Assembly: GCA_016872595.1 (NCBI GenBank)
Contig: VGZJ01000017.1
Coordinates: 1-42,939, forward strand
Direction: 5' to 3'
Origin: Planctomycetota bacterium
GTDB lineage: Bacteria > Planctomycetota > Planctomycetia > Gemmatales > Gemmataceae
DNA length: 42,939 bases
Part shown: one piece after another, positions 4,695 through 21,341 of the stretch
Position numbering within the stretch: position 1 is the stretch's first letter
How the letters are laid out: every line of letters begins with the position of its first letter
Position numbers and translations under genes: made by a program
The notes under the pieces: model-generated
Told to the model about the DNA's origin: nothing
Database searches by the model: none
What the model saw: only the letters and a program-made list of their open reading frames with translations

Positions 4695-4774
4695 CCGGCC
4701 GCCTTCTGTAGCCGGCCGCACTGAGGCCGGGGCTACACGACGCACACGGCACCGGCCTTACTGAGGCCGGCTAC
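4691..4774. repeat. Cluster of REP-like palindromic units (GTAGCCGGCC...GGCCGG-GGCTAC)
   Basis: Three related units in 84 bp: 4691 GTAGCCGGCCGC; 4709-4736 GTAGCCGGCCGCACTGAGGCCGGGGCTAC; 4749-4774 GCACCGGCCTTACTGAGGCCGGCTAC. Confidence 0.7.
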
Positions 4775-4805
4775 TGAGATAGGTCTAGGCTGAGGGAGAA
4801 GCCAG

Positions 4806-12908: not shown

Positions 12909-13473
12909 TCGGGCATCCTCTGCCGAGGGGGATGAGGGGCGGCGAGAGAGGCAACAGCCACCCGGACACGGGCTAATCTAGGCAAACGGGGTGGTGGGGT
13001 CAATTCGAGGTGCGTCGTTCGCGCCCGTGGAGAAGAAGTGCGACCGCGGCGCGAAATCCGCGTCTGCCTCGCGAACGCGGGCTCAATCCGGCGTGGGCGC
13101 TCGTGGCGCGGCGAAAGTCGCGGGTACGACGCCGGTGGAAATGCGAGTCCTTCCTTCACCGCCCTTGAAGTCGCCATGTTCCGTCGCATCCCCTCCCGTC
13201 GCTGCGAACTGATGGGCAAGGCGGGATTCCGGCAGCTTGGCGCTGGGAAGCCCTCACGTTCGGCTCCGTTCAGATGCCCCCGAACGGTGCGTTACCCACT
13301 GTGGGCACCGTGCCCGGTAACGCACCGATGGAACTCTTCGTCGGCGTCGAGAACGGCAGGACCGTCTGGAAACTCGGACCGAAACCCACGTAGTCACATC
13401 ACAGCGCCCATACGCACAGCGCCATTCACGAATACTGAACGGGCGCTCGCACGCTATCCACAGGTATTTCCGT

Positions 13474-13854
13474 ATGACCCCCTTTCCCGTACAGGTTCTC
13501 GACACTTGCCTTGTGTTGAGCCTGTGCGCCTGCGCGACAAACGGATTCGTTGACGCTCCAATACCGCAGCAACTGCCCGAAATCGTGCGCGTGATGCGGG
13601 ACGGAGATAAGGGGCCGTGCGGTGCGCGTGCCGGCCGGGTGACGGCCGAGACACAAGATAGTGTCACGGTCGAGTTCTATGAGCGCTACACCGAGTGGAC
13701 CGTGGACACCGATGAGCAGCGCCGGCCCGTTCGGAAGCGGACGTACATTTATCCCGCGCTCACCCCGCAGGAGTTGAAGTTGCGCGGTCCCATAGCAGAG
13801 GCTAAGCTGCCCGAACGTGTCGGCCGCGCGTCGCACCTCATCATGCTCGGTTGA
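13474..13854 (+). CDS. Lipoprotein-like ORF, possibly the N-terminal half of a disrupted PDZ gene
   Basis: Lipobox-like LSLCACATNGF; ends within the left arm of a perfect palindrome. Confidence 0.5.
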   Translation: MTPFPVQVLDTCLVLSLCACATNGFVDAPIPQQLPEIVRVMRDGDKGPCGARAGRVTAETQDSVTVEFYERYTEWTVDTDEQRRPVRKRTYIYPALTPQELKLRGPIAEAKLPERVGRASHLIMLG

Positions 13855-13924
13855 ACCCCTCTGGTTAGAGGCGGCGAAATTCCCGGGATTTCGCCGCCTC
13901 TAACCAGAGGGGTTCAACCGAGCA
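13844..13924. repeat. Perfect long palindrome, 37-bp arms, 7-nt centre
   Basis: TGCTCGGTTGAACCCCTCTGGTTAGAGGCGGCGAAAT-TCCCGGG-ATTTCGCCGCCTCTAACCAGAGGGGTTCAACCGAGCA. Confidence 0.97.
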
Positions 13925-14200
13925 CACTTCTTTGAGACGGCCGATGTCGGGGTTGAAGTCGCTTTCAAGGGCAAGGACATAACGATTGGCAAGCTGACGC
14001 CCGGTTCGCCGCTCACAAAGTACGGCATCAAAGAGGGCGACATCAAAACGCGCATCAACGACAAGGAAACCAAGACTGCGAACGACCTGCGGCGCGAGTT
14101 GCGGTACTCGTTGGCGCTGGAAGCGGGCATCTTCCACATCACCCGCGGCGACCAGAAACTCACACGCATCGTCTACTTCACGAACGAGCTCGAGAGGTGA
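13922..14200 (+). pseudogene. PDZ-domain C-terminal fragment without a start codon
   Basis: Frame reads AHFFETADVGVEVAFKGKDITIGKLTPGSPLTKYGIKEGDIKTRINDKETKTANDLRRELRYSLALEAGIFHITRGDQKLTRIVYFTNELER*; in-frame TAA inside the palindrome just upstream. Confidence 0.65.
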
Positions 14201-15038: not shown

Positions 15039-15518
15039 TCACACCTTGCGGCGGTAGTGGGCCTCCATGAACTGGTGCCACGTGCCGTCTTCGGCGCGGT
15101 ACCGCGACGACAGTACGCGGTGATCGGGCGAAAGGAACTCGATGGTGTCCTGATACTTCGCGGTCTTGGTCGGGTCCGCGAAGCTCGGCCCCTCGGCGTC
15201 GAGCACGAGTTTGTTGCCGCTCGCGTCCATGGTACCCTCGTACACCCACATGTGCGTCATCATCGAGCCGATGAAGGTGCCGAGGTACTTGCCCTTCGCC
15301 GGGTCGAAGCCGAGCGTCATCACGGTGGCCGCGGGCGCGCCGTCCGCGCCGGGCATCGTGCCGAAGCACTGCACCCACACGTTGAGCGAGCGCACCGACT
15401 CGGTGCCGGTGTGGACTACGGGCGGCTGGTCCGGGCCGTTCGGCGCGTTCATCTCCCATGCCCACTCGCCCACGAGCCGCTCCAGCCACTTGTGTTCCGC
15501 CTGCGGGTGCGCGTTCAT
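15039..15518 (-). CDS. DUF1579-like protein
   Basis: HKWLERLVGEWAWE, GKYLGTFIGSMMTHMWVYEGTMD, GPSFADPTKTAKYQDTIEFLSPDHRVLSSR. Confidence 0.75.
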   Translation of the reverse strand: MNAHPQAEHKWLERLVGEWAWEMNAPNGPDQPPVVHTGTESVRSLNVWVQCFGTMPGADGAPAATVMTLGFDPAKGKYLGTFIGSMMTHMWVYEGTMDASGNKLVLDAEGPSFADPTKTAKYQDTIEFLSPDHRVLSSRYRAEDGTWHQFMEAHYRRKV

Positions 15519-15704
15519 GTGTCACCTGCTGGGTTCGGGCGAAGGCGGGACTGTACGCCCGGCGCGGCGCGAACGCGAGGTCAGTCGCACGCGCCGGACA
15601 GTAGAGGGTGCAGGACACGTTTTGCGAACCGGTAGCGGTTGGGGTACAAGGGAGGATGGGAAACCACTTCCGGAGTCGACCCCAAGTGTAAGGCAGGACA
15701 GCCC

Positions 15705-17089
15705 ATGGCGAAACGCAAACCATCACCCGAGCAACTCGCTGCCGTGAAGGAACTCGCCAAGCAGTGGGGCAAACTCATCGCTCGGAACGCCTACGGCAGC
15801 GACGGGCCGACTCTCGATACCGACTTCGACGAGATGGAGCAGATCGCCGCCGCCGCCACGGCCGGGCTGGTCGAAGGCACCCTCGAGCACCTCACCCAAC
15901 AGCACGCACAACGACTGCCCGGCGAGCTACCCTGTCCCACCTGCCAAAAGCTCTGCGGTGTCGAACGCCGGCCGCGCCAGGTCGTCGCACGCGGAGCCAC
16001 CGTCACGCTCCAGGAACCCGTCGCACACGGCAACGCCTGTCGGCGGGACTTTTCCCCCCAGAGGCCTCACCTGCGACTTGATTCCCACGGGTACCGTCCG
16101 TCCGTGCTCGCCAAGGTCGTTCTCGTCGGGGCCACGCTCCCGTCGTTCGAGTTGGCCGCCAGGGCCCTCCGGCTCCTGGCCGATGTCTCGATCAGTGGCC
16201 GCCACGTCGGACGGCTGACCGAGGCCATCGGGTCGGAACTGGTTGTCGAACGGGACAGGCAAGCCGAAGCCCGCCGCACGCGGAAGCTCGCCGCTTGTGT
16301 TCCCAACCCGCCCTCGGTCGTTGCGGTCGAGGTGGATGGCGGTCGATACCAGCGGCGAGCGGAAGGGCTCGGGTGCGGGGCACGCGACCCGCACTGGCGT
16401 GAGGACAAGGTGGCCTGTCTGGTGACGCTGTCGAGCAGCACCCGCGAGGTCGACCCACAACCCGAGCCGCGAGCGTGCTTCCTGGACCGCAGGCACGTCC
16501 GGGACACGACGCAGTGCCCGCGCGGCGAGCAATCCCAGTCAGCCGACGAGGGCACCCCGAGTGTATCGGAATCCAAGCCGGAAGGCGGTGGTTCGCGGGC
16601 TACGTCGCGGTGGTGGACTTCGTCCACGTATTGGGTTACGTGTGGCAAGCGGCGAGCGTGGTCGTTGGTAGCGAGGCGGAACAGTGGGCTCGTTACGCGA
16701 AGTGGACGCGCGGTTGCTGGCAGGGTCGCGTGTCGGAGGTGCTGATCGAACTGGATCACGAGCAGGAGCGACTGGGTCGAGTCCCCGAGGATGCGGCGGC
16801 GGCCGACCCGCGTGTGGTGCTGGAACGGGTGCGCGGGTATCGGAGGAACAACGTAGACCGGATGAAGTACCCGGAGTACCGGCGGCGTGGTCTGCCGGTG
16901 ACGAGTTCGTGGGTGGAGTCACTGATCGAGGAGATCAACTACCGGGTCAAGGGGACGGAAAAGTTCTGGAACGAGTCCGGGGCGGAAAGTGTCCTCCAAG
17001 TTCGGGCGGCTGTGCTGAGCGAGGACGACCGACTCGCCAAGCACCTCGACGCCCGACCGGGTTCAGCTTTCCGCAGACCGATCAACTAG
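15705..17089 (+). mobile_element. ISKra4-like transposase, degenerate (frameshift and probable internal deletion)
   Basis: Frame 1: MAKRKPSPEQ...CPTCQKLCG...VVAVEVDGGRYQRR...HWREDKVACLVTLSSS; continues in another frame: VVDFVHVLGYVWQAASVVVGSEAEQWARYAKWTRGCWQGR...GLPVTSSWVESLIEEINYRVKGTEKFWNESGAESVLQVRAA. Confidence 0.75.
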
Positions 17090-21272: not shown

Positions 21273-21341
21273 TAGTAGGCACACGCCGTGTGTCGTTGCT
21301 GGACGGAAGGTTCAGCAACGGCACACGGCGTGTGCCTACTA
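21273..21341. repeat. Inverted-repeat element, 27-28-bp arms with one mismatch
   Basis: AGTAGGCACACGCCGTGTGtCGTTGCT-N13-AGCAACGgCACACGGCGTGTGCCTACT. Confidence 0.9.

Follow-up and report, generated by a model that had tools for sequence, protein, structure and literature searches.

The perfect 81-bp palindrome at positions 13844-13924 of the window (the whole stretch of DNA that we analysed, 42,939 nucleotides) is very probably a derived copy of a MITE, a conclusion well supported by further copies in the host genome and its relatives. Comparison with these copies indicates that it keeps the right half of the element and that an inverted copy of this right half stands in for the left half, an arrangement we call R'-R. 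The palindrome lies in a rearranged tract specific to this lineage; it borders a truncated gene and has no target duplication. The features are as follows.

13474 to 13854, forward strand: P0001, an orphan ORF of 126 aa, lipoprotein-like by eye.
13844 to 13924, forward strand: probable palindromic R'-R derivative of a 102-bp MITE of the IS5/IS903-like kind.
13844 to 13880, reverse strand: left arm, which repeats the right half of the element in inverted form; its outermost bases are the terminal repeat TGCTCGGTTGAACCCC.
13881 to 13924, forward strand: retained right part of the element, which corresponds to the final 44 nt of the 102-bp consensus and has the terminal repeat GGGGTTCAACCGAGCA at its end.
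13882 to 13887, no strand: CCCGGG, the self-complementary central hexamer and proposed point of template switching or joining.
13925 to 14200, forward strand: gene remnant encoding the last 91 residues, with the PDZ domain, of a protein about 430 aa long.

The palindrome consists of two 37-bp arms that are perfect reverse complements around the centre TCCCGGG, with coordinates and sequence exactly as described in an initial annotation of this DNA. In a search of the 42.9-kb window for inverted repeats with arms separated by at most 500 bases, no longer one was found. The T at 13881, directly before CCCGGG, is unpaired and makes the centre asymmetric; in this parse it would be the sole remnant of the element's left side. 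The left and right flanks, ACCTCATCA and CACTTCTTT, show no 9-bp target duplication around the palindrome, and the initial annotation had likewise seen no convincing one. Two other long hairpins lie in the window, at 21273-21341 and 4705-4777, with arms that are 94% and 83% complementary. Sequence similar to both occurs in other loci of the same genome and of related genomes, and they are probably other dispersed hairpin repeats.

A search of the host genome with the 81 bp had been proposed as a check for a mobile element. In the host's Gemmataceae genome bin (6.8 Mb, 590 contigs) we found five related copies: the window copy, those on contigs C24, C69 and C275, and a truncated one on C307. 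These four further loci bear out a multicopy, mobile-element origin. The three complete copies are 102-103 bp long and are not perfect palindromes; their left and right halves are unlike, making them quasipalindromes. They have terminal inverted repeats of 16-17 bp (TGCTCTGTTGAAAYCC), one end of the C275 copy reading TGTACTG, and each is flanked by a perfect 9-bp target duplication (ACATCAACT, TCTCCGTGT and AGGGCACCA). When folded, ordinary copies pair their terminal 16-17 bp into a stem and form a small inner hairpin, with poor pairing in between, and so possess both the outer and the inner stem required for template switching. A copy in the same-family genome G076 is 86% identical and has a 9/9-bp duplication (ACTGCCGGT). 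Weaker family matches occur in G003, G012, G050 and G008; as the G012 and G050 copies have no clear target duplication, its loss is not unique to the window copy.

Because of their terminal inverted repeats, differing halves and perfect 9-bp duplications, we regard the complete copies as MITEs. The family is like other MITEs in being short (about 100 bp), multicopy and non-coding, with terminal inverted repeats, perfect duplications of fixed length (in the three host copies and the G076 copy) and termini shared with autonomous insertion sequences, found in G076 and G008. The window copy itself departs from this pattern in its inverted-duplicated half and its absent target duplication.

The insertion sequences came from scanning the relatives for the MITE terminal sequence to find a partner IS. 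G076 carries a 987-bp IS with the same ends as the MITE and the 9-bp duplication ACTCCGGCG on both sides; two overlapping frames of this IS match DDE_Tnp_1 and the NCBIfam entry IS5_2. A like-ended element in G008 has a stronger transposase match. In its DDE_Tnp_1 match, which is above the cut-off, its IS5_2 match and its 9-bp duplication of IS903 type, the like-ended IS resembles the IS903-like group of the IS5 family, although IS5_2, the best NCBIfam match (E 6e-33), gives scores of 84 and 115 bits, below the 140-bit cut-off. The ends common to the MITE and the IS, TGCTCTGTTGAA, also resemble the IS903 end, GGCTTTGTTGAA. The family thus has the marks of MITEs that would have been moved in trans by an IS5-type, IS903-like transposase. 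No transposase of this kind was found in the host assembly, a fragmented bin that may lack IS copies.

Within the frame overlap of the G076 IS (locus L126, contig C612), at about 2159-2165, lies a TTTTTTA run, an A-run on the coding strand. Its position suggests that it could serve programmed frameshifting of the transposase. The window holds a transposase remnant of another kind, a frameshifted sequence of the ISKra4 family at 15639-17089, between a DUF ORF (15039-15518) and selB.

The R'-R structure emerges when each half of the palindrome is set against the consensus. Positions 13881-13924 are identical to its last 44 nt at 41 of 44 sites. The left arm, 13844-13880, agrees with the inverted right-half consensus at 35 of 37 positions and with the left-half consensus at 23 of 37, so that the arms are identical and one of them is unlike the ancestral half, as expected of a template switch. 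Two substitutions are private to the window copy, occurring in both of its arms and in no other copy. Since the left arm reproduces the right arm in exact reverse complement, these private substitutions included, we read the window copy as R'-R. The host genome yielded no further R'-R copy, and a strict R'-R pattern scan of the genome contigs, which may omit the window's own genome, returned only two ordinary copies. The initial annotation had offered either an inserted element or a template-switch inverted duplication. Each proved right in part: the first in its multicopy, mobile origin, the second in that the perfect symmetry comes from one half of the element duplicated in inverted form.

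The frames that flank the palindrome do not make up a single gene. The last three codons of P0001 and its TGA stop lie inside the left arm, as the initial annotation had noted, and since its last codons fall in the element the ORF may be truncated. P0001 has no detected homologue among 199 relatives and no match in Pfam or NCBIfam. On the other side, a TAA at 13901-13903 in the right arm closes the downstream frame, which (13922-14200) has no ATG, GTG or TTG ahead of DITIGKL; this stop, the missing start and the different frames of the two flanks had all been correctly described. Homology to the PDZ protein begins at FFETADVG, a single codon beyond the right edge of the palindrome. Full-length proteins of about 430 aa, with 69-73% identity, are present in the same-genus genomes G012, G004 and G006 and, cut by a contig end, in G003. 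Their N-terminal part of about 340 residues is not in the host's own assembly, where other ORFs encode only distant paralogues. A single lipoprotein-PDZ gene cut in two, as first proposed, does not survive this comparison, because P0001 is an orphan and is unlike the first 340 or so residues of the PDZ homologues. In three same-genus loci (L078, L079 and L081) the full-length PDZ-protein gene is preceded by one whose product resembles a repetitive, Pmp-like beta-helix surface protein, which suggests that beta-helix and PDZ genes are a recurring pair in three genomes of the genus.

The wider neighbourhood also differs from that of the relatives. The gene to the left, glgP, and the SIS-domain gene to the right are not adjacent in any relative examined; they lie at 3.49 and 5.14 Mb in G008 and on separate contigs in G012. 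Homology upstream of glgP ends near 12990 and does not cover 12990-13843. A search for an empty site by synteny found neither the PDZ piece nor glgP 3' of the SIS gene in any of the relatives examined. Gene order 3' of the SIS gene varies among them anyway, and the block junction therefore cannot be pinned to the palindrome. A single-copy palindrome conserved between orthologous genes, the outcome that the initial annotation had set against its own reading, was not seen.

The likeliest history, which we consider probable rather than firmly established, is a MITE insertion, a quasipalindrome template switch and a deletion or rearrangement of a flank, with the order of these events tentative. 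The MITE would have inserted in, or come to lie in, the gene for the PDZ protein. A polymerase may then have changed template at the inner hairpin, whose centre is CCCGGG, made a reversed copy of the right arm and switched back at the terminal repeat, replacing the left half and leaving a perfect palindrome. The DNA to the left of the element, including about 340 PDZ codons and one target duplication, would later have been lost or exchanged, perhaps by a transposase-mediated adjacent deletion in the manner of IS903. Since the window copy is not bounded by a target duplication, the sequence on one side of it or on both has probably changed. Against this history stand its need for two distinct events, a template switch and a flank loss, and the failure to find another R'-R copy or a transposase of the like-ended IS kind in the host assembly. 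All parts and processes in this history are of known kinds.

Correction of quasipalindromes by template switching is established in E. coli (PMC7202029). As in the Ripley model of such mutations (PMC7202029), an imperfect inverted repeat has become perfect, with arms copied from each other. The tract here is larger than in the 4-bp laboratory reporters (PMC7202029), about 58 nt being replaced by 37, and the window copy differs from these mutations in that its flank has probably changed as well. Recombination and adjacent deletion are reported as frequent causes of lost target duplications, and IS903 is said to produce adjacent deletions commonly (PMC11708052). The window shares with IS-mediated adjacent deletions (PMC11708052) intact element ends, the lack of a duplication and a neighbouring gene truncated at the element; it differs in that its deletion endpoints are presumptive.

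A one-step origin is the main rival and a serious one, though we think it rather unlikely. Here a copy oriented R'-L' close to the orphan ORF and an oppositely oriented L-R copy within the PDZ gene would have joined at their self-complementary CCCGGG centres, with both left halves, both inner target duplications and the intervening DNA removed. A single event of this kind would account for the R'-R structure, the precise outer ends, the absent duplication and the lost PDZ N-terminus. However, both copies would have to share the private substitutions (in TGCTCGGTTGAACCCC) that are seen in no other copy, and the breaks would have to fall at nearly symmetrical points. The reciprocal L'-L palindrome was not found in the host's own genome, although a deletion need not leave one. 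The broader proposition, that one event between inverted MITE copies made both the palindrome and the deletion or exchange, and that R'-R palindromes are rearrangement scars in these planctomycetes, seems a shade more doubtful still. If true, it would make perfect R'-R palindromes readable as scars of MITE-driven rearrangement in this group.

We regard it as improbable that a chimera, made by the assembly software or while the library was prepared, created the join between the flanks or the inverted half. The palindrome junction is read from a 590-contig assembly; the genome bin is fragmented, such repeats break assemblies, and in relatives the blocks to which the two flanks belong are widely separated. 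A fold-back artefact should nevertheless run into the flank, whereas the arms stop exactly at the ends of the terminal repeats. The arms also bear substitutions of their own. The sequence crossing the centre, GCGAAATTCCCGGGATTTCGC, is in no other copy, so joining known normal copies does not create it.

A functional hairpin under selection (a bidirectional terminator, REP element or structured RNA) is scarcely credible: the fold is very stable as single-stranded DNA (-51 kcal/mol, against -11.9 +/- 2.5 for shuffles) and lies near a convergent gene boundary, but no Rfam family matches at gathering score, the weak matches to eukaryotic microRNA hairpins are taken as an effect of symmetry, no T-run follows the stem, and the copies are scattered with target duplications, fitting mobile DNA. 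An integron attC site, considered by eye, was dropped in view of the 9-bp duplications and the like-ended IS.

The oddity of the perfect palindrome is resolved in that 81 bp of such symmetry can be a MITE corrected to symmetry and do not have to be a functional hairpin. The copies described here form a small Gemmataceae MITE family tied to a like-ended IS5-type element with 9-bp duplications, and the window gives a case of a probably MITE-derived element marking the edge of a truncated gene.

In G000, G076 and G016 the same end, TGCTCTGTTGAAAT/C, also occurs on other short hairpin elements whose interiors differ. Those in G000 are at C9:15906-15984 (L050), C112:7798 (L059), C242:9145 (L062) and C186:2044 (L048). 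The G076 element (C674:5598-5758, L130) is 163 bp long with a 9/9 duplication and the G016 element (C1:6808523, L111) 250 bp long with an 8/9 duplication; these two look like further MITE families that use the same kind of transposase.
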